This document shows positions 255 through 47,800 of a stretch of 64,000 bases of DNA, piece after piece (position 1 is the stretch's first letter; each line of letters starts with the position of its first letter). Made by a program: the position numbers and the translations under genes. This DNA is from Onthophagus taurus. Lineage: Eukaryota; Arthropoda; Insecta; Coleoptera; Scarabaeidae. The stretch lies in NCBI RefSeq assembly GCF_036711975.1, contig NC_091972.1, positions 8,561,001 through 8,625,000 of the forward strand. Direction: 5' to 3'. The notes beneath the pieces were generated by a model. The model was given only the letters and a program-made list of their open reading frames with translations, did not search any database and had not been told where the DNA came from.

Positions 255-350
255 TCGTGGTACTGTGACTAGCAGTATGAGACCAACCGTAATAGCTATA
301 ATATTAATACAGTAATTTAATTTTTTGATGTTAGGTTAAAGGAAAAATGC

Positions 351-3300
351 TAGTGATGGAACGGATAGTGATTTTGCGAAAAGCCGGATATCGGTTATTC
401 GGCATCACCTTCGGCCGGATAACCGGTTATCTGGCATATCTATCGGGCCATTATGGTTATAATTTCTGGTGCATTTCTGAAGAGATACCCTATATTGCCA
501 CATTATAGGGATATTTGAATAAAAATGAAATTAATAAGAAAGCTGATAAGATATGTCAACTTATTTGGATCCAAGATACCAAATGAACTTTTTTGATGCT
601 GATTTAACTCACGAAGCAACTCTAAAAAGAGGATACTTTTTAGAATTTTGTCAAAATTTCAAATATTGTTTTCTCAAAAACTAAAAGTTATTTTTCAAAA
701 CGCGTTGGTTCATTGGAAAGAGGACACTTTTATTAACATTTTGGGAAATTTTCATACTCATATTCCAAGATGTAGATTTTATACGAATTTTTAAAACTTA
801 ATCGGCGAAAATTGCAAAATTCGAAAAAATTGTCGATCATTTCAAACATTTATTACTCAAGAACTAAAGGCGATTTTTCAAAATGGCTTGTTGCATTAGA
901 AAGAGGATACTATAATTAATAATTGGTGATATTTCCACAAGGCTCCTTCAAGAAATTAATGTTATAGCGAATTTTGAAAGTTATCGATGAAAATTGCAAC
1001 ATTGAAAATTTTATCGAAACTTCAAATATTGTTTTCTCAAAAAGTAAAAGTTATTTTTCAACACGTGTTAGTTTATTGGAAAGAGGACACTCTTATTAAC
1101 ACTTTGGGAAATTTTTATACTTATATTCCAAGATATGGATTTTATACGAATTTTTCAAACTTAATCGGTGAAAATTGTAAAATTCGAAAAAATTGTCGAT
1201 CATTTCAAACATTTATTTCTCAAAAATTAAACGTGATTTTTCAAAACGCCTTTTTGCATTACAAAGAGGATACTATAATTAATAATTGGTGCTATTTCCA
1301 CAAGGATCCTTCAAGAAATTAATTTTATAGCGTATTTTGAAAGTTATCGATGAAAATTACAACATCGAAAATTTTATCAAAACTTCAAATATTGTTTTCT
1401 CAAAAACTAAAAGTTATTTTTCAAAACGTGTTGGTTCATTGGAAAGAGGACACTTTTATTAACATTTTGGGAAATTTTCATACCCATATTTCAAGATATG
1501 GATTTTATGCGAATTTTTCAAACTTAATCGGCGAAAATTGAAAATTTGAAAAAATTATCGATTATTTCAAAAATTTATTTCTCAAGAACTAAAAGTGATT
1601 TTTCAAAACGGCTTGTTGCATTAGAAAGAGGATACTATAATTAATAATTGGTGGTATTTCCACAAGGATCCTTCAAGAAATTAATTTTATAGCGAATTTT
1701 GAAAGTTATCGATGAAAATTGCAATATTGAAAATTTGCTCAAAACTTCAAATATTGTTTTCTCAAAAACTAAAAGTTATTTTTCAAAACGTGTTGGTTCA
1801 TTGGAAAGAGGACACTTTTATTAACATTTTGGGAAATTTTCATACCCATATTTCAAGATATGGATTTTATGCGAATTTTTCAAACTTAATCGGCGAAAAT
1901 TGAAAATTTGAAAAAATTATCGATTATTTCAAAAATTTATTTCTCAAGAACTAAAAGTGATTTTTCAAAACGGCTTGTTGCATTAGAAAGAGGATACTAT
2001 AATTAATAATTGGTGGTATTTCCACAAGGATCCTTCAAGAAATTAATTTTATAGCGAATTTTGAAAGTTATCGATGAAAATTGCAATATTGAAAATTTGC
2101 TCAAAACTTCAAATATTGTTTTCTCAAAAAGTAAAAGTTATTTTTCAAAACGTGTTGGTTTATTGGAAAGAGGACACTCTTATTAACACTTTGAGAAATT
2201 TTTAAACTTATATTCCAAGATATGGATTTTATACGAATTTTGCAAACTTAATCGGCGAAAAATGCAAAATTCGAAAAAATTGTTGATCATTTCAAACATT
2301 TATTTCTCAAAAACTAAACGTGATTTTTCAAAACGCCTTTTTGCATTACAAAGAGGATACTATAATTAATAATTGGTGCTATTTCCACAAGGATCCTTCA
2401 AGAAATTAATTTTATAGCGTATTTTGAAAGTTATCGATGAAAATTACAACATCGAAAATTTTATCAAAACTTCAAATATTGTTTTCTCAAAAACTAAAAG
2501 TTATTTTTCAAAACGTGTTGGTTCATTGGAAAGAGGACACTTTTATTAACATTTTGGGAAATTTTCATACCCATATTTCATGATATGGATTTTATGCGAA
2601 TTTTTCAAACTTAATCGGCGAAAATTGAAAATTTGAAAAAATTATCGATTATTTCAAAAATTTATTTCTCAAGAACTAAAAGTGATTTTTCAAAACGGCT
2701 TGTTGCATTAGAAAGAGGATACTATAATTAATAATTGGTGGTATTTCCACAAGGATCCTTCAAGAAATTAATTTTATAGCGAATTTTGAAAGTTATCGAT
2801 GAAAATTGCAATATTGAAAATTTGCTCAAAACTTCAAATATTGTTTTCTCAAAAACTAAAAGTTATTTTTCAAAACGTGTTGGTTCATTGGAAAGAGGAC
2901 ACTTTTATTAACATTTTGGGAAATTTTCATACCCATATTTCAAGATATGGATTTTATGCGAATTTTTCAAACTTAATCGGCGAAAATTGAAAATTTGAAA
3001 AAATTATCGATTATTTCAAAAATTTATTTCTCAAGAACTAAAAGTGATTTTTCAAAACGGCTTGTTGCATTAGAAAGAGGATACTATAATTAATAATTGG
3101 TGGTATTTCCACAAGGATCCTTCAAGAAATTAATTTTATAGCGAATTTTGAAAGTTATCGATGAAAATTGCAATATTGAAAATTTGCTCAAAACTTCAAA
3201 TATTGTTTTCTCAAAAAGTAAAAGTTATTTTTCAAAACGTGTTGGTTTATTGGAAAGAGGACACTTTTATTAACATTTTGGGAAATTTTCATACCCATAT

Positions 3301-4294
3301 TTCAAGATATGGATTTTATGCGAATTTTTCAAACTAAATCGGCGAAAATTGCAAAATTCGAAAAAATTTTCGATTATTTAAAAAATTTATTTCTCAAGAA
3401 CTAAAAGTGATTTTTCAAAACGGCTTGTTGCATTAAAAAGAGGATACTATAATTAATAATTGGTGATATTTCCACAAAGATCCTTCAAGAAAGTAATTTT
3501 ATACCGAATTTTGAAAGTTATCGATGAAAATTGCAACATCGAAAATTTGATCGAAACTTCAAATATTGTTTTCTCAAAAAGTAAAAGTTATTTTTTAAAA
3601 CGTGTTAGTTTATTGGAAAGAGGACACTCTTATTAACACTTTGGGAAATTTTTAAACTTATATTTCAAGATATGGATTTTATACAAATTTTTGAAACTTA
3701 ATCGGCGCAAAATGCAAAATTCGAAAAAATTGTTGATCATTTCAAACATTTATTTCTCAAAAACTAAACGTGATTTTTCAAAACGCCTTTTTGCATTACA
3801 AAGAGGATACTATAATTAATAATTGGTGATATTTCCACAAGGATCCTTCAAGAAATTAATTTTATAGCGTATTTTGAAAGTTATCGATGAAAATTACAAC
3901 ATCGAAAATTTTATCAAAACTGCAAATATTGTTTTCTCAAAAACTAAAAGTTATTTTTCAAAACGTGTTGGTTCATTGGAAAGAGGACACTTTTATTAAC
4001 ATTTTGGGAAATTTTCATACCCATATTTCAAGATATAGATTTTATATGAATTTTTGAAACTTAATGGGCGAAAATTGCAAAATTCGAAAAAATTGTTGAT
4101 TATTTCAAAAATTGGTTGTTATCTGCAGTGTCCAACACCTAAAAGAGATACTAATTCCTGGGAATGGTGGAGTAGTAAGTAATAGGTTTTTAATATCCAA
4201 CCAAAGCCGGATATTTGGTAACTATCCGGTATCGGGGGGGATTTTAAAAAATGACCAGACACCGGGTAGTTGCCGGATATCCGTTTCACCACTA
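351..4294. mobile_element. hAT-like non-autonomous element carrying satellite array
   Basis: The left end (351-367) and the reverse complement of the right end (4278-4294) match at 15 of 17 positions, both starting TAGTGRTGRAACGGATA. This resembles the TAGGGATG-type ends of Ac/hAT transposons. Immediately outside lie AAAAATGC (343-350) and AAAAATAC (4295-4302), a 7/8 direct repeat of the 8-bp length hAT transposases make. Both subterminal zones are rich in palindromic CCGGATATCCGG-like motifs (373-440 and 4205-4285). No transposase is encoded: the interior is almost entirely the 362-bp tandem satellite. A non-autonomous hAT is the best reading. The single target-site mismatch would fit an old insertion. 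Confidence 0.75.
620..4107 (+). repeat. 362-bp tandem satellite array, about 9.6 copies
   Basis: Corresponding points recur at about 987, 1350, 1712, 2075, 2437, 2799, 3161, 3523 and 3886, giving a 362-363 bp period. Each monomer is itself a diverged dimer of two ~181-bp halves: TTCAAATATTGTTTTCTCAA in one half corresponds to TTCAAACATTTATTTCTCAA in the other (1021, 1204 and 1384). Copies differ by diagnostic variants that recur every third unit over part of the array. The 63-codon open frames in several monomers are by-products of the repeat; the copy at about 2437 has an in-frame TGA. The array lies inside the hAT-like element and ends before both of its termini. Confidence 0.93.
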
Positions 4295-4302
4295 AAAAAT
4301 AC

Positions 4303-4607: not shown

Positions 4608-6749
4608 TTAGTTGCCATCGGTTTGTATTTGCGACTTCACCTTATCCCAGAATGCTTCAACTGGTGCAACAACAGAAATAAAAACTAAAACTATCACGAT
4701 GCAGAGGATTAATATGATGTAAAGGGCCAATAACGTTTTTCTTAATTTTGAATACTGCAAATTAAAAAAGAAATTAAACTAAAATCAAAGTCTAAGATAT
4801 AATTACTTACTGGTGCATCCCCTCCTCTATCAGAATAAGCAGAAGTCCTTCCTGACCCACCTAAATCCTTCATTGGAAATGACGTTACTCGTCTTTCAGC
4901 TTGTTTTTCAGAAGCAGCGTTCAATATCTTAAAAATAAATTAAGTTTATTTGAGTTATTTCTTTGTTAATATTGTTTAATTACCGATAACACAATATGAA
5001 TAATAACATGTAGTGCTACAAATCCAACTAAAATCCAATCCATCCATTCTGGAAGTTCAGCTTTTGTCAGTCTTACAGCAAAGAAAATGGTAACAACTAA
5101 AAAAACATTTAATCAAAAACAATTAAATCGATACAAAATAAATATATTTACTTGCAAGAATGTGAGCAACATTTCCACACAACCAATGCAACCAATTAAA
5201 AATGGGCCTCTTTGAAGTACCGGGATGTGGTCTAAAGTAAGCCCCAATTGGTTGGATAAAACACAAAATCGTTGTTATTATACCCAAAATCGCGTGAGGA
5301 TTATCTTCTGATGACCATGCTTTTAATTCAACGAAAATTAAAATAAATCCGGCTATCGTTAATGACCAAGTTAATATCATAAAAAATCTATGCCACTAAA
5401 ACCAAATAAAGCGTTAATCACATCATAAGTGAAGTTCATATCATCAAATCAAAATTTTAAACACTTACTGCAAACCATAAATCTTTTCCACACATTGTAG
5501 TTCCCACCCAAGTTTGTCGATAATATCTTGCTAATAAAACCCCAATTGAAGCAGTCCCTAACCAAGCAGCTAACATAAAAGCTCCATGTAATCTTAATAA
5601 AATTTTTGAAGCTCCCTCCAACGAAGAAATGTCCGATAATAATAATTTATCACCACTTGCCAATCGAGAAACGTCGTGATAACCAACTTTATTCGCATCA
5701 ATACTTTTACCAGCAGCTACCAAGAGATTGTATTTCGTATTAACTAAATCAAACTGTACATCATTAACAGTTGTAATAGCATCTCTTTGTACTCGACAAA
5801 AAATCGCTCCATCTTCAATCGAAGAACTTAATAACTTAATTCCTCTTTGATCGTTAGGCCTAAAAACACCCAAATTTGGTCTTGGGTTCGTCCAAGACAT
5901 GTATGCTTGAACACCGCCGGAAGAATCCTTAACACATTCAATCACTGAATCATCGCCCATTTTATCATCTTGAGATAAACCGACTCCAACCCAAGAAGCT
6001 GTATTATGGGATTTTAATTCAAATTCGTATCGTTCCCCGTAAACGTTAACGGCAACGATTGCTTTACAATTTTTTGATTGCAAACAACCATCTGGGGCAC
6101 CAAAACAAGTTTTCTTCGTACCGCAACCGTCGTAAAATGGATCAAATTCTGTTGATGATTCCGTTTTTGGTTCAGCTTTAAAGTACGGCGTGGTGTTTGA
6201 AGTTATTTTAGAACGGGATACTTGAATTGTTGGGGATTGAATTCCAACCCAAAAAGTTGCGTAATTTTGAGCCACAGTAGCACTAAAAAAATAAAACAAA
6301 TAAATTGTTTTATGATGCATTAATATGATTTTTTTAGTTTCTTACTTAAAAGTAACAGGTCCTTCATAACTATTAGAATGCCATTGAATTTCTAAATTCT
6401 TCTTTTGTGACGTCGACCAATGAGTAACGCTATTATCCGTGGATCCGTCGCAATCTATAGTTTTAATTAAGTTAGGAGTTGGTTCGAACGTTCCGATGAT
6501 TTGTCCGTTTGGATTTCGTGCCTGTAACATGAAACCTTCGAAGTCTTCGCGACCTATCGTAACCAAAACACCCAAAATATTCGGTTTTAATTGTAAAATA
6601 TATGGAGATTCCGTTGTTTGAGGTGTGACTCCACTGTGATTTGGCATCATTGTAGCGCAAACTATAGGAGGTGCTCCGTCGGGAAGGGGTTGAACGTTGT
6701 TAATGAGTGTGTAGATAAGAATAAGTTTTTGAAGATGAAGGGAAAACAT
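4608..6749 (-). CDS. Ferric-chelate reductase 1-like protein (Reeler, DOMON, cytochrome b561)
   Basis: Six exons join in phase: 6346-6749, 5469-6282, 5152-5395, 4984-5096, 4811-4927 and 4608-4754, giving 612 residues. The start [13 protein letters not shown] begins a signal peptide, and TTTCTTTCAG just 5' of it is a likely 5'-UTR acceptor. A Reeler domain fills about residues 20-150. A DOMON domain follows (about 155-330, including [15 protein letters not shown]). A cytochrome b561 module spans about 345-500, with the expected haem-ligand histidines in LHGAFM, WHRFFM, HAILG and NWLHW. The tail carries one more hydrophobic segment ([19 protein letters not shown]). The family includes vertebrate FRRS1 and Drosophila CG8399, transmembrane ascorbate-dependent reductases. 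Enzyme activity here is inferred from the conserved haem sites. The hAT/satellite element lies just 3' of the gene. Confidence 0.92.
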
Positions 6750-7603: not shown

Positions 7604-8222
7604 AACTTCAGGTTTAAAATGTCAACCTCAATTTTGACATATTTGTAATCTTCATTAAAAATCCTTTAAAATGAGTACAAACACGACATAATTATCTTCA
7701 ATATTAATGAAGTTATGATCAACTTCCGGTTAAGAATGTCAACGTCAATTTTGACATATTTGTAATCGTCGTGAAAAATCCTTTAAAATGAGTCCAAACA
7801 TGATACGTTTAATTCCAATATTACTCGAGATATAAGCAACTTCCGGTTTGAAATGTCAATGTCATTTTGACATATTCTTAATTTTTATAAAATGTGTTAA
7901 AATTTATCACAAACACGGAAATATAATAAAAAAAATCAAAAATTAAGGTTGGTATTAATATTTAAAAATTAAATTGCTATCTTCTTTGTTGCTAACTTCG
8001 GGTTTAATGTTTTTTATTCTAACTTTTTTGTTTTTTGAGATAAGTGCGTCATCTTTGGACTCATTTTAAAGGTTTTTTAATGAGGATGACAAATATGTCA
8101 AAATTGACGTTGACGTTTCAACCGGAAGTGATTGTATTTTCATTACTATTAAAGTTAAATACGTCGAGTTTGGACTCATTTTAAAGGATTTTTTATGAAG
8201 TTGACAAATATGTCAAAATTAA
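7604..8222. repeat. Inverted-repeat element built of 117-bp tandem units
   Basis: Units start at 7604, 7721 and 7838 with AACTTCMGGTTTAAAATGTC and share TTTTGACATATTTGTAATC and ATCCTTTAAAATGAGT, a period of 117 bp. The same unit reappears in reverse complement from about 8040 to 8222: GGACTCATTTTAAAGG occurs at 8056 and 8174, 118 bp apart. Tandem arms facing each other around an unrelated ~120-bp centre suggest a foldback or MITE-type element. No coding capacity was seen. Confidence 0.85.
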
Positions 8223-8232
8223 AAGTAGAAAG

Positions 8233-8286
8233 TTCGAACTTTTTGGTTTTTTGAATATAAAGCATTCAAAAAACCAAAAAAACTTT
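8233..8286. repeat. Short near-perfect hairpin
   Basis: AACTTTTTGGTTTTTTGAAT is followed, after a short ATAAAGC spacer, by its near-exact complement ATTCAAAAAACCAAAAAAAC. The ~54-bp palindrome abuts the 117-bp inverted element and may belong to its terminus. Confidence 0.7.
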
Positions 8287-9440
8287 AAAACAAATAGTAT
8301 TTTAGGTCTTTCGATATTCTGCATTTTTTCTGAAATAAGTTACACCTTTACCTACCAGACAGCATGAAAATCTGTAAAAACAATAAAATGTCGCTTAGTC
8401 AAGAATGTTAAAATGAGGAGTTTTTCAAAACAAAAAATAGGAATAAGTTTTTCAGTCAATTTAGATTCTTGGAATTTTGCCTTTAATTACAGGAAAATAT
8501 TATTTTGTGAATCATTTAATTATCTACGAACAATTCTATTTATAAAATCGTGTAGGATTTGACCTTAAAAATAAAAAGCAATAAAAAAAATGCTTTAAAG
8601 ATTTAACCTTTTTTAAGGTTAAACGTAATTGTTGCATTGGGTGGAGTATAGCTTCAATTAAAATTCCATTGGATATCTTTAAATCAAAAAGAAAATGAGT
8701 CATTTTCAGCATGACTTTGCAATTGAATATGACATCATAACAAGCATTAGAATATGTATTATCAATTATAATCTTCTTTAACAGTCTGACTTATTAATAA
8801 AATTTCCGATGATACACTTTTGAAAATTAAACCAAACCACATTTTTAATCCTCTATCTTTAAAAATTTAAAATGACTCACATTCAGGCTTGAGTTTTTCC
8901 AAGGAATTTTGACGGCCGCAGTTCAATGCGAACGAGTTTTTAGAATTGCTTGCCGCTTGGGGAAATCCAGGCCAACCATCAAGGCGGTTTTCATTCATTA
9001 CATATTTTATCAAAATAATTTTTTTAAATAGACTATCTACAATTGTTATGAATCATCTTAAAACCGTCCGTTTTGTTGTACTTTTCTGAACTAATTCCCG
9101 ACAACTACTACCATTTTGCGTTACCCCAACGCAACATTTTTAATAAGAACGAGAACGGCACGCTTTGTTGTAGTTAACTCCTTGGCAACAACCCCTATTT
9201 TAACCCCTTGTTGTATTAAAAGGTCGTTCACGTTCAAGAAATTGGGTTAAATAATCGAGAAATAAATTTAACTAGGGGTTAGAATTTAGGTTAGATTAAA
9301 TCTAAATCTTTTAGTTCGAATAATTTTATGGGGTGATTTTATCGTTCAGTTTTGAGTTTTATTGCTTTTTGTAGAATTATTTTCTTTGTAAAAAATGGAT
9401 AAAAGGGTAAATTATTACTTTTATATGATTATAAATAATA
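8287..9440. other. No gene seen
   Basis: Intergenic AT-rich DNA. A slightly GC-richer patch at 9060-9230 has repeated TTGTTGTA/GCAACA words but no coding frame. Confidence 0.4.
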
Positions 9441-9751
9441 CAGTAAAACCGCGATAAAGAGCAGCTCATAGATAGAATCCAATTCGGGTTATTCCCCGAG
9501 TTGTCTATATTGTATATTGTTGTATATTTTTCATTAAATTAAAACTAGAACTAACACTAGACCTAGAACTAGAAACATTCGGGTTTAGCCATCTTAAAGA
9601 CGCAAGGCTAACCCCGAATATTTCTAGTTCTAGGTCAAGTGTTAGTTCTAATGCTAGTGTTAGTTCTAGTTTTAGATTTTATTCAGTGCTAGATGGTTGT
9701 ATATTTTCATTGAACTTCCTTCCCCATATTAATCCGTTGTATTGAGATTTT
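9441..9751. mobile_element. pogo/Tigger-like MITE with CTAG hairpin core
   Basis: The left end CAGTAAAACCGCGATAAAG (9441) aligns with the reverse complement of the right end (about 9728-9751, which reads inward as TTAAAATCTCAATACAACGG). These ends resemble the CAGT-ACCTCGATATAACGGA termini of pogo/Tigger elements. The core (9538-9683) is a long hairpin. A run of degenerate CTAGAA/CTAACA hexamers leads into CATTCGGGTTTAGCC, a loop, then the complementary CGGCT-type arm and TCTAG hexamers. No protein is encoded. Confidence 0.7.
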
Positions 9752-14879: not shown

Positions 14880-16110
14880 ACGTTTTTATTAAACTAAAAC
14901 TAGAACTATCACTGGACCTAGAACTAGAAACATTCGGGTTTAGCCGTACGTCTCTTAAGACGGCTTAGATAACTTAGTTCTTGCAGACTAACTAAATACT
15001 ACTAGTGAATGACTGAATACTGATTCCAAAACACCAGATTCTGGTCTAAAAAGACTAGATCCTGCTTACAGATGACTATTATTTGCAGAAGATCAGCTGC
15101 TACTAAGAAAACCCTACATTTTGCTATTGGAAAATTGAATACTGATTGCAGAAGACTGGATTCTACTTAATACCAATAAGAGACTATACATTGCTATTAG
15201 AAGACTAGTACTGCTAATAAAAAACAGTATACGGCTAGCAAAAGAATAGACACTACGGGCAACAAACTAAATCCTGGCTATAAAAGACTGGATACTGTTT
15301 GCAGAAGACTTCTTAATACTTATAGAAGATTAAACATTATAAGCAGAATACTAGGTGCTGGAAGAGAACCAGATAGTGGTAATGGATGATTAAATATACA
15401 CAACATATTGTTTGTTGAAGCTTAGATGCTGCTGCCAAGAGATAAGATATTATTAAAACTTGCTTTATATATATTAGATATTGTTAAAAACGCTCCTTGA
15501 ATTAAATGAGCAAGATCTTGCTTTTTGGAATGATTTTTTTTTTAATATTGATTAAGATAACTTGTACCCCAGCTTGTCTAATGTTAACCTAGTGATTACT
15601 TACTGTAGAGTTATTAGAAATTTTCGTGTCAAGAATAAGGTCAACAAAGTTACACCGCTTAAAAGACAAGTATAGCAAATTCGTACTCTTACGCACATCT
15701 TTTCATTTAACAAATTTCTCTTCTAACGAACATAGATACGTTTGAAAAAGATATGAGTAAGTTTAGCCGGGGTCTAGTGTTAGTTCTAGTTTTAGTTCAA
15801 TAAAAAAATATATAACAATCTAGCGCTGAGTAACAAGTAAATCTAGAACTAAGACTAGCATTAGAACTAATACTAGAAATAGAACTAGTAACATTCGGGT
15901 TTAGCCGTGCGTCTCTTAAGACGGCTAAACCCGAATGTTTCTAGGTCTAGGTCTAGTGTTAGTTCTAATTTTCGTTCAATAAAAAGTAAACAACAACCTG
16001 CGCTGAATAACAATTAAAACTAGAATTACCATCCTTGCTTTATACATCATATAGACAACTCGATGTTGGTTTTAACAAGGTCCATTATATCGAGATATTA
16101 CTCTATTGAA
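14880..16110. mobile_element. Composite CTAG-hairpin / pogo-like element cluster
   Basis: A left CTAG arm with its GGGTTTAGCCGT stem base lies at 14890-14975. The matching right arm appears only at 15768-15806, separated by about 800 bp of degenerate minisatellite. A second, complete hairpin copy follows (15840-15985), with a stem of CATTCGGGTTTAGCCG and its complement. The cluster ends near 16085-16110 with ATATCGAGATATTAC, which in reverse complement is a pogo/Tigger-like terminus. The interior motif CATATAGACAACTCG is shared, reversed, with the copy near 9490. Confidence 0.65.
14990..15430 (+). repeat. Degenerate minisatellite
   Basis: Irregularly spaced variants of GAAGACTGGATACTG, separated by TTGCA/CTTACA words, recur about 15 times (for example AAGACTAGATCCTG, AAGACTGGATTCTA, AAGACTGGATACTG). 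The period is not constant, roughly 20-35 bp. The tract sits between the two separated arms of a CTAG hairpin. Confidence 0.6.
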
Positions 16111-18263: not shown

Positions 18264-19054
18264 AAGTCTGACGGCCAATTCGGGTGTATTATGTACCGTT
18301 GGCTAGCCAAACAACTATGCTCGTCCGTACGACTAGTTTTGACCACGTAAAGTATTTTGCCGTAGAGAAAAATTTCAAAGTAAAACTTTTTTGATTTGTT
18401 TATTCTAGAATGTTGAGAATGGCAACCGAAACACGAAGAACATTCAAAATTAAACGTTGGCAAACGTAATAAAAAGTTACGCGTACTTGAATTTTGGCCC
18501 ATGCAAAATGTTGGGAAGAAATAGATTAATTGATAATGGTAGAGATAGATAGAGATGGCGAAATTATAGTAATAGTGGGTGGCGAGGATGCAAATAAAAG
18601 ATGATTTTTAGTAGAAGTTGCCAAATGAGGTACGAAGGATAAAGAACAACAAAGAAATCGGGTCTGACGGCCGATTCGGGTGTATTATGTACCGTTGGCT
18701 AGCCAAACAACTATGCTCGTCCGTACGACTAGTTTTGACCACGTAAAGTATTTTGCCGTAGAGAAAAATTTCAAAGTAAAATTTTTTTGATTTGTTTATT
18801 CTAGAATGTTGAGAATGGCAACCGAAACACGAAGAACATTCAAAATTAAACGTTGGCAAACGTAATAAAAAGTTACGCGTACTTGAATTTTGGCCCATGC
18901 AAAATGTTGGGAAGAAATAGATTAATTGATAATGGTAGAGATAGATAGAGATGGCGAAATTATAGTAATAGTGGGTGGCGAGGATGCAAATAAAAGATGA
19001 TTTTTAGTAGAAGTTGCCAAATGAGGTACGAAGGATAAAGAACAACAAAGAAAT
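18264..19054. repeat. Tandem duplication of a ~396-bp segment
   Basis: The segment beginning GTCTGACGGCC (18266) and ending AACAACAAAGAAATC is repeated almost identically from 18662, with only a few substitutions seen. The second copy runs directly into a LINE tail. The two 80-96 codon antisense frames within it are just the two copies of one non-coding stretch. Confidence 0.9.
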
Positions 19055-19405
19055 CTGCATACAAAAACACTAAAAGATTTTTCGATCTTGCTATTCCAAT
19101 TGTTATTCCAGAATGCTTTCAACTATATATCGGTCAAATTGTACAATGCATTGCCATCAAAAATAAAAGAGTTGAATAACAAAAGGTTCAAACAGACACT
19201 TAAACGAATATTATTGGAAAAGGAGTATTATTCAATTGAGGAATAGCTGCAGACAAGAACTTTCCTAATATATAAATACTGGGTTGTGAATGGGTTGTAA
19301 GGAAGGATATGTAATATTTTGAATCTTACGAACTGTATATTATTGACGAGAACAATGTATAATCATACTTATTCAATAAAACTATGATTATTATTATTAT
19401 TAATA
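19055..19405 (+). pseudogene. Non-LTR retrotransposon 3' end
   Basis: The plus strand reads VKLYNALPSKIKELNNKRFK then QTLKRILLEKEYYSIEE, the conserved last helix region of CR1/Jockey-type LINE polyproteins (LWN-LP-I...F---LK--LL...YS--E). It is followed by untranslated sequence and a (TTA)n tail at about 19383-19403. The reverse transcriptase core is missing, although the preceding duplicated segment may be rearranged LINE sequence. Confidence 0.65.
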
Positions 19406-20778: not shown

Positions 20779-33444
<12,666 letters not shown>

Positions 33445-44835: not shown

Positions 44836-47800
44836 TTATGACCAACCCCCCGTTAATTTATGGAAAAGTTCTTCATTCAATGCTTGATTGGCTTCTTTAG
44901 ATCGCATGGATAAGAATATATAACCCCCAATAAATTCATGTATAACCTTACAGTCAGCAGAAATACATGCAAATACTATATTTTCTTCTTCAAATTGTAC
45001 CATCATGTGTTTTACTTCCCAATTAACATTCCAAGCTTTCATTGTATTATAACGCCATGTTTTTTGATGATCACCATTGCCAATATCCATTTTCATTATT
45101 CGATTATTAGCAATACCTAAAAGATCTTCTTTTTTGTTACCCATAAATTTAACAATAAATAAACTAATGCCATATTCAGGAAGTGATTGCCACGCTTTTA
45201 TATAATTTAATTTTGCATCAATAAGACCCAAATCTTTTACATTTGCATGAGCTTCAAATATCCTTTGAATTAACTAAAAAAAAATATAATAGTAAAATAA
45301 GCAACATCAATAATCAGTGATAAAACATACTTTTCCTTTAATTTTTTTCAAATAACGTGGTGAAACATATTCTTCCGGTTGTATATCTAAAGAATTTGGA
45401 TTTATGGCTGGTTTTTCACTTGGTTTTTGCATTTGTAAAAACTCTGTAATTGTTTGTACTTCACTATCATAAGAACTATCAGCAAGAGATCTCCCTTTTG
45501 CTGCTAATTTACACGCTGCCAACCATTTTGCATATTGACTTTCCTTTAAAAATCACTCAATGTTACTAAAAATAAATTATTTTCGGGAAATTCCTTACCG
45601 ATTCACATCTAATATACATATCTTGCATTCCTTCACTGGATGGAACATCCAATTTAATTCCAAATTTATTTTGACTGATGTTTACATCAGGGGTGACTTC
45701 GCAACCTTTTAAATTTACTTTCATAACAGGTTCTTGGCGGTGAATTAAATCCTCGCGAGTTTTATACAGGTACAAGTTCAAATCTTTACAGGAAAACCAA
45801 TATTTTTTAAATGTTTTCATTAAGAAACTTTTCCTGAAAAAAAATGTTTTAATTAATATTTTTATAAAATTATCAAATTTAAATAATTTACTTTAAAAAT
45901 CGAAGTTCATCGTTTAATTCAGGCACTTTGGTGATGTCATTGTAATTATTTGAAATTCTCGATCCTTCTAAAGTGGTTTGAAGTTCGTTTAAAGCGGAAT
46001 CAATATCGTCTTCTGGAGGTGGTGTCGTTGTACCATTATTTGGAGTGAAATTAGGTTGCGGTTGATTTGCTTGTAAACTAATTTGTAGCTAGAAATAAAA
46101 ATTAGTTAAAAAATGACAAAAAAAAAGCGAGGAAAGAATCAAACCTGTAATGCGGCAAACATTAACATCTCTTCTTCGGTACAATCAATTTCTTCGTTCA
46201 ATAATTGCCATTTTGCTTGTTCGTAAATTTGATTGATACGAACCGCGTCGTATTTTTGGTTTAAGTCGTAAAATTCGTAAAACTTAAATCGAAGACATAA
46301 CGTTCCGTATTCTTGGACACCTTGTTCCATAATTGATAGTGATGAATCCAACCAACTGTATAAAAACGAAAAGGTAAAGTTGAAATTTTACATCAATCAT
46401 TCTAATAAATAGCAAGGGCTATTAGAGAATGTGCAGAGCAAGTACTAGAAGTGGGTGTTGGGGTTGGCTAGGAAGAAGCGTAGGATTTGAGTTATTATTG
46501 TTGTTATTATTATTACTATTACATGAATTATGAATTGTAACCCACTGTAGGCAATAAATTATTATTATTATTACTTACGCAACATTCATTCTTGCTTTTT
46601 CAACTAATGATTTTGGCCGAACCAACATACTTCTATCTTTAGGACTAATAGTCGGTGGTGATTGTGCTAAAGAATTATCAAGACCTCCATTTAACTGCTC
46701 CAAACTCATATTTGGTGAGTATCCAGCGTTTGCATCATAACCATTCTTCTTCCAAGTACCTGCAGGGCTACTAATTGGCGTTGAAGACTGTGGAACCCTT
46801 CCCGGTGTGATAGGAGCGCAAGAAAACGATTTATCCAAACTTCCATTACTTCCTTGCGGACTATGAGCCGGTATAAAAGTGTTCGTGTCTTTAGCTACGT
46901 GCCCATTTCTGTGCGCACCCCCGTTTTCATGTTTTCTTTTCGGCAAATCTTTAAAATTACATTTTAAATTCGCCGCTTCCAACGGTTTACAGAGAGATAA
47001 TTCTTCGGGATGTCGAATACCAAGTTGTTTGCATATTGAGATAACAGCCGAAAAAGTTTTTACTGAGAAATCGACCATCATATCTAAATAACGTAAATCC
47101 GGCATTTGAAGGCGTAATATTTTGTGCATTGGTGTGAATTCCAATTGGGCGTCAGCTTGTACTCCGTATTGATCTAATGTCGATCTTGTTCTGTTTAACC
47201 AAATATTTCTTTCTGGCCACCATAATGCATGATCTGACCAATCCATAGAGATTTCTGTAACAAAATGAATTAGAAATAAAATTGAAATAGAAATACAGTA
47301 AAATCTTGATATAACGGATTAATACGGGAAAGGGTTTAGCCATCTTGAGAGACGTACCCAAATGTTTCTAGTTCTAGGACTAATGTTAGTTCTAGTGACA
47401 GTGTAAGTGTAAAACTAGAACTAACAATAAACCTAGAAGTAGAAAGTTTCGGGTTTAGCCGTGCGTCTCCAGACTCACGGCTAAACCCAAATATTTCTAG
47501 TTCTAGGTTTAGTGTTAGTTCTAGTTTTTTTTATTAAGGCAGGATTGTTGTTTATTTTTTCTAGTTCTAGTGTTAATTCTACTTTTAGTTCAATAACAAT
47601 ATACAACAATCCAGCGGTGAATAACAAATTAAACTAGAACTACCATTTATATATCGTATGAATAACTCGGGCAATACCCTGAGTTTACCTATGAAATAAA
47701 CCAACATCTACTGAAAATTGTATAAACGAAAACATTAATTGTACAGTTAAAACATCCACATTGCAACTTTCTTTAATAAACTATTAAAATTGGACATTTA

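Follow-up and report, generated by a model that had tools for sequence, protein, structure and literature searches.

How satellite DNA enters euchromatin near genes is an old question, and it is raised by one locus of the beetle Onthophagus taurus, where an array of a 362-bp satellite lies close to a gene within a stretch of 64,000 nucleotides (here called the window; C7:8561001-8625000 in a genome of 290.8 Mb and 33 contigs). Our study confirmed that positions 351-4294 of the window are one copy of a non-autonomous element of hAT type that encloses the satellite (Table 1). An earlier note, made from the letters of this DNA, had proposed a hAT-like transposon around the array, with 17-bp terminal inverted repeats (TIRs) agreeing at 15/17 positions and an 8-bp target duplication agreeing at 7/8, and its coordinates proved right to the base. 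Its count of about 9.6 satellite monomers was also returned by Tandem Repeats Finder (647-4113, period 363, 9.6 copies, 93% matches), which in addition picks out a half-period near 180 bp (72%), the monomer being a diverged dimer of about 180 bp. The explanation that we favor, with a probability of roughly 0.87, is that a hAT element which had acquired its array once has jumped in trans with a short satellite load, that arrays have later grown locally, and that some of them now stand free.

Chance does not readily give such ends together with such a duplication: when the flanks were shuffled 60 times in two-base blocks, TIRs agreeing at 13/17 positions or more together with a duplication of at least 7/8 never arose. 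At up to three mismatches, the pattern TAGTGRTGGAACGGATA has three matches in the whole window, for an expectation of 0.18 from 100 shuffles, none of which reached three. The window copy is nonetheless a derivative of the plan seen in most of the copies, which consists of a satellite-free left end (LE) of 272 bp, the satellite array, a spacer (SP) of 197 bp and a right end (RE) of about 183 bp: the array of the window copy opens with a shortened monomer and, before RE, lacks the end of its last monomer, and the spacer is absent.

This plan recurs across the genome. At no more than one mismatch TAGTGRTGGAACGGATA is found in 1,340 places in the 290.8 Mb, and a 28-base core of the satellite in 7,704 places at no more than three mismatches, the backwards control giving 0 in both cases. 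A query with LE (window 351-640) yielded 1,162 first-look candidates, the best 40 of which were scored and are 90-100% identical, and a query with RE (4110-4294) yielded 941, again with the best 40 scored. At many loci both termini are present and flank satellite, as would be expected from the proposal in the earlier note. The satellite is entered at monomer phase ~251 in 33/38 loci and left at ~277 in 32/37 (within 6 bp), and these shared junction phases argue for a single acquisition of the array by an ancestor of the family. Satellite of more than 60 bp is carried by 51 of the 58 loci anchored on an end of the element (29 left, 29 right; the window's own two excluded). The longest element-borne array that we saw has about 21 monomers (L007/L008).

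The association of ends and satellite was also measured on contig C1, using the first 100 TIRs and the first 100 satellite cores, all exact and all on that contig. A TIR lies within 6 kb of 33 of the 60 satellite clusters, against a mean of 1.6 and a maximum of 7 in 2000 trials of random placement, and this is likely a lower bound because the list holds exact TIRs only. Of the 33 associated clusters, 31 are on the inner side of the TIR and 30 have the strand that the type of TIR predicts. Among the C1 TIRs themselves, 15 convergent neighbors are 0.67-4.4 kb apart, compared to five other arrangements below 10 kb. The element thus has what is expected of a satellite-bearing transposon, namely a tandem array within its boundaries, a variable copy number and satellite also outside; its many copies of similar structure, and the absence of a recognized transposase in a Pfam scan that covered the spacer, make it a non-autonomous element resembling a miniature inverted-repeat transposable element (MITE). 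The spacer (L018:2515-2711) holds an open frame of 65 codons, perhaps a captured piece of a gene, for which the Pfam scan gave a sub-threshold match only (E 0.056). At one locus (L062:74-3049), three LEs and two REs succeed one another, all pointing the same way, so that short copies of the element stand in tandem.

Evidence that the element has transposed comes from its flanks. Both termini were sought in 37 of 68 loci; 18 showed both patterns and 16 were used, L047 being dropped for a spurious left match and L062 because its ends are in the wrong order. In each of the other 15 copies in this test, the left end opens with the TAGTGATGGAACGGATA 17-mer at 0-3 mismatches. An 8-bp duplication matching at 7/8 or better is present in 11/16 copies (six of them at 8/8), as against 2/240 mispaired flanks, and the match between flanks averages 0.83 over 8 bases, compared to 0.24-0.38 when lengths of 4-7 or 9-12 are taken. 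The target conforms to nTnnnnAn in 10/14 copies (L010 and L041 left out), against a background of 0.115 (P = 2.5e-7). The 8-bp duplication, the preference for nTnnnnAn (as stated for Hermes) and the short imperfect TIRs are all features of hAT elements. Joined flanks of 13 of the 16 copies were then used in a search for empty sites, in which 40 of 516 candidates were scored; the three omitted were L010, which has no duplication, L024, which sits in a minisatellite, and L063, whose flank is repeat-like. Among these 40 candidates, matches spanning the joint were obtained for 2/13 copies: L018 has one paralogous empty site (L109, C7:13938135), which aligns across the joint and has the target once only, at 7/8, and L046 has two (L110, C7:17232332, 7/8; L111, C1:16624997, 8/8), again with a single target copy. 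We did not count a third spanning match of L046, which adjoins L046 itself on C2, or repeats that match the right flank of L013 and start 13 bases left of the joint. The three paralogous empty sites support two insertions, so that the duplications and empty sites that a moving element should leave behind were both found.

How much satellite travels at each jump is a separate matter. The earlier note had described a transposon loaded with about 9.6 monomers as the vehicle that seeds satellite DNA; carriage and seeding are supported by the termini found with satellite, by the duplications and by the empty sites, but the array carried in a jump was probably short, since the 36 of the 51 arrays at end-anchored loci that finish inside the locus have a median of two monomers (range 0.8-4.0; the other 15 run to the locus edge). 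Growth after insertion is suggested by a three-monomer higher-order period of 1,087 bp, which extends over 872-3652 of the window array. The best segment at this offset (872-2565) is identical at 1,639/1,694 positions, monomers 6-7 (2459-3182) equal monomers 3-4 (1372-2095) at 100% (rounded), and monomers 2, 5 and 9 are alike at 96-97%. Across the family, of the 127 monomers from arrays of at least two, 78 find their nearest neighbor within their own array, versus 5.6 expected, and divergence is 0.057 within and 0.088 between arrays; later growth of the arrays is local. A comparison of first and last monomers (75 extracted; from 65, five outliers and eight from one-monomer copies were dropped) showed that they differ by 0.093 within 13 copies and by 0.098 across copies, and the near equality of these values is as expected if first and last monomer were both present before insertion.

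A source of transposase was sought among the hAT genes of the same genome, for which 150 places were scored out of 1,076 candidates, all of them over the family cut-off. An intact hAT frame of 627 aa is present in four copies at 100% (rounded), one of which scores slightly lower (Table 1), and the element around one of these genes (L069) has the TIRs TAGGGATGTTCCGAAGC and TAGAGATGGACCGAAGC and an exact 8-bp duplication, so that this family, judged by its sequence, has probably been active recently. The first 75 bases of the satellite element match the terminus of this element weakly (70%, E 0.008). By the same comparison, the 627-aa element would be another family, a cousin of the satellite element and not its partner. 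The search covered five kilobases round one 627-aa hAT gene and the 1.6-kb 3' flanks of 20 other hAT genes, and those 20 flanks gave no match to RE.

Table 1. Coordinates of the element copy, its neighbor and the intact hAT frames (window positions unless a contig is given).
Feature	Position	Strand	Remark
Left 8-bp target site duplication, aaaaatgc	343-350		7/8 match to 4295-4302
Left TIR, TAGTGATGGAACGGATA	351-367	+	15/17 vs right TIR
Left end (LE), satellite-free, 272 bp	351-622	+	
Satellite array, ~9.6 monomers of 362 bp	623-4111	+	First monomer shortened; full monomers from 647
Right end (RE), about 183 bp	4112-4294	+	
Right TIR, TAGTGGTGAAACGGATA	4278-4294	-	Common form in other copies TAGTGGTGGAACGGATA
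Right 8-bp target site duplication, aaaaatac	4295-4302		7/8 match to 343-350
DOMON exon	5457-6341		Domain scan
Intact 627-aa hAT frame	C8:20233597-20235474		
Intact 627-aa hAT frame	C11:3121323-3123200		
Intact 627-aa hAT frame	C11:6164136-6166013		
Intact 627-aa hAT frame	C11:10093155-10095032		

In the succession of events that we propose, an ancestral element of the hAT superfamily would have acquired an array of the 362-bp satellite once, and hAT transposase acting in trans would have cut and pasted its copies into sites of 8 bp, most of them fitting nTnnnnAn. The array carried at the jump would have been short, with probably one to three monomers; some arrays would then lengthen and homogenize where they had inserted, by duplicating blocks of monomers, and some would lose their ends, or spread by another route, and so come to stand free. 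We infer the monomer number at the jump, the order of these events and the origin of the free arrays.

Several points weigh against this account. None of the 21 hAT places searched, out of the 150 scored, has a transposase gene with the ends of the satellite element, and for this reason we can only infer mobilization in trans. The window's own target does not fit nTnnnnAn, and among the 16 copies in the duplication test L010 lacks a duplication and L041 has a match of only 5/8. The end-anchored loci are the best matches to the window's own ends and therefore a non-random sample, and long copies are under-represented among the loci with both ends because the flanks taken were 1.5 kb. A separation of first and last monomers into position classes was reached in 0/5000 shuffles when untrimmed, in 47/2000 with 25 columns trimmed per end and in 363/2000 with 40 trimmed, the signal sitting near the array junctions; since it is not robust to trimming, we do not rely on this test for the travel of two or more monomers. 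Lastly, 8 of the 16 largest arrays have no end of the element within the stretches examined, about 500-900 bp on each side.

These 16 arrays, six of which were viewed through L001-L008 and ten by pieces from their edges, have element sequence on both sides in five cases, on one side or as a remnant in three, and on neither side in the remaining eight. The statement in the earlier note that the satellite is not free-standing therefore holds for the window array, which is enclosed by the element, and not for the satellite as a whole. One of the arrays without ends, at C5:8.5 Mb, stops at the canonical phase 277 without a spacer, and the flanks of such arrays are mutually unrelated apart from short matches. 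The satellite amounts to roughly 1% of the genome, if each core match is one 362-bp monomer.

Two origins of the free arrays deserve consideration. According to the first, to which we give slightly less than an even chance, a segment inside the element was duplicated in tandem and became the satellite, and the free arrays descend from copies whose ends have been lost. A single genome indeed holds copies with one, two, three and up to about 21 monomers, along with one-ended and end-less arrays, and the mean distances among long and short arrays (0.078, 0.089 and 0.098) are star-like, which fits a spread from one source. On the other hand, no ancestor devoid of tandem repeats was identified, and in the stretches examined no remnant of element ends is seen at the edges of the end-less arrays. 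We would go further only tentatively, and rather doubt that this one genome displays the whole path by which a hAT element turns into a satellite, from seeds of one or two monomers through growth to about 21 to the loss of the ends; if it does, the transposon gave rise to the dispersed satellite, of which about 7,700 monomers were detected, and still feeds it.

According to the second origin, a possibility that we hold with some reserve, the free satellite came first, a hAT element captured a piece of it once, and the free arrays are older and have spread, for example, by extrachromosomal circles; this is compatible with the account of jumping and local growth given above. In its favor, the free arrays have flanks that are mostly unrelated and edges that fall at various phases, and the satellite has no clear similarity to the rest of the element (best E 0.28). 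An older free array might be expected to be an outgroup, yet the monomers of L002, the one free array held whole, are 0.083 from other arrays, compared to 0.091 among those. The longest runs among 33 scored candidates are also a few kb, in an assembly from which heterochromatin may be missing. That the satellite is independent and dispersed, with the TIR-like termini of the window a product of chance or a coincidental neighbor, draws on the end-less half of the largest arrays and is highly improbable in view of the same ends, orientation and junction phases at dozens of loci, the duplications and empty sites at satellite-bearing copies and the C1 association far above random placement.

Satellite arrays inside non-autonomous transposons are already known. 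In the oyster Crassostrea gigas, satellites of the CgiSat families are borne by Helitrons, described as rolling-circle elements (PMC8268682, PMC11136912). Like these, the element studied here has short arrays genome-wide and classes with ends on both sides, on one side and on none; its carrier differs in being a TIR element with 8-bp duplications. Although in oysters, the best-studied case among those compared here, element-borne satellites lie mostly in Helitrons, it is very improbable that our element is a Helitron or another tandem-repeat carrier outside the TIR/hAT group, given its 17-bp TIRs, duplications that peak at 8 bp in the length test and fall mostly at nTnnnnAn, and the hAT transposase element of the same genome with TAGRGATG-type TIRs and an exact 8-bp duplication. 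Another such element is Tetris (TIR-220) of Drosophila virilis, a non-autonomous DNA transposon with variable tandem repeats, 8-10 bp duplications and longer satellite-like arrays elsewhere (PMC4079207). Tetris is foldback-like, with its repeats inside long TIRs and three structurally complete copies, whereas the element here has one central array, unlike ends and 17-bp TIRs.

DNA transposons with tandem satellite units are also described in Vaccinium, where VaccSat7 (3-5 units) is in HARB-N1/HARB-N7 and VaccSat3 in DNA3-1, DNA9-20, DNA8-5 and DNA8-7 (PMC7290377). Two families with 8-bp target site duplications (TSDs) hold part of VaccSat3, but the carriers there are plant Harbinger elements and unclassified families with TSDs of 3, 8 or 9 bp, and the parts of that report describing them mention no tandem units for an 8-bp-TSD family. 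The Xenopus elements miDNA4 and Xstir similarly are MITEs with an amplifying internal satellite, but of Tc1/mariner or unclassified type and not hAT (review, PMC9659126). Among beetles, TCAST1 elements of Tribolium castaneum place a satellite in a TIR element near genes, but with TIRs of about 269 bp, an ACT duplication and one nearly complete monomer plus an inverted piece, and the TCAST element is described as mariner-like (PMC3411249). Identity with TCAST1, suggested by the 360-bp monomer, was rejected, as one published TCAST1 primer matches nowhere in the genome exactly and differs from the window element at no fewer than 9 of 23 bases. The ends resemble those of the hAT element Hermes, which has imperfect 17-bp TIRs, dissimilar ends and an 8-bp nTnnnnAn target (PMC10368747); Hermes encodes a transposase, and none was recognized in the satellite element.

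Other reports concern the edges and the dispersal of satellites. In molluscs, satellites have abrupt junctions with anonymous sequence or Helitrons (PMC5139131); in Tenebrio molitor, conserved unclassified flanks of TmSat06/TmSat07 arrays are suspected to be transposon segments (PMC13192020); and for T. castaneum, extrachromosomal circles and recombination have been proposed besides transposition (PMC5844308). Among the top-ranked matches of a literature search, most of them unopened and with Repbase outside its coverage, we found no hAT element with tandem satellite units, and the family would extend satellite-bearing transposons to the hAT superfamily. The case is unusually clean in that many of its steps leave a readable scar. 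Because many arrays bear the mark of their insertion (duplication and TIRs, with empty sites for two), seeding and later growth can be separated and measured locus by locus.

The position of the window copy near a gene, which the earlier note had put about 300 bp from a 3' end, is borne out: the element stops 306 bp short of a stop codon (4608-4610), which closes a minus-strand reading frame that we take to be the end of a DOMON-domain gene, its exons not having been joined. A farnesoic acid methyltransferase domain, which looks insect-like, was also recognized in the scan that gave the DOMON exon. A search for the telomerase RNA-binding family found no match in this genome, nor in the control genomes, and so carries no weight; a mitochondrial primer of Tenebrio molitor likewise had no match, in an assembly from which the mitochondrion may be missing. 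On the other side, an open exon-like stretch of ~100 codons lies on the minus strand at about 13-300, with hydrophobic segments and a stop near 13; no Pfam family scored over threshold in it, and it may place the element inside an intron. Elsewhere in the window, a 396-bp unit is duplicated in tandem at 99% (18266-19055), and a 117-bp tandem repeat is present in 2.3 copies (7604-7876), with more diverged units seen by eye at about 8050-8300. Imperfect AACTAACACTAG-like repeat stretches are dispersed in both orientations (9513-9715, 15771-16031, 31273-31805 and 47332-47645), and resemble the flank of the element copy L024 and stretches in other loci.

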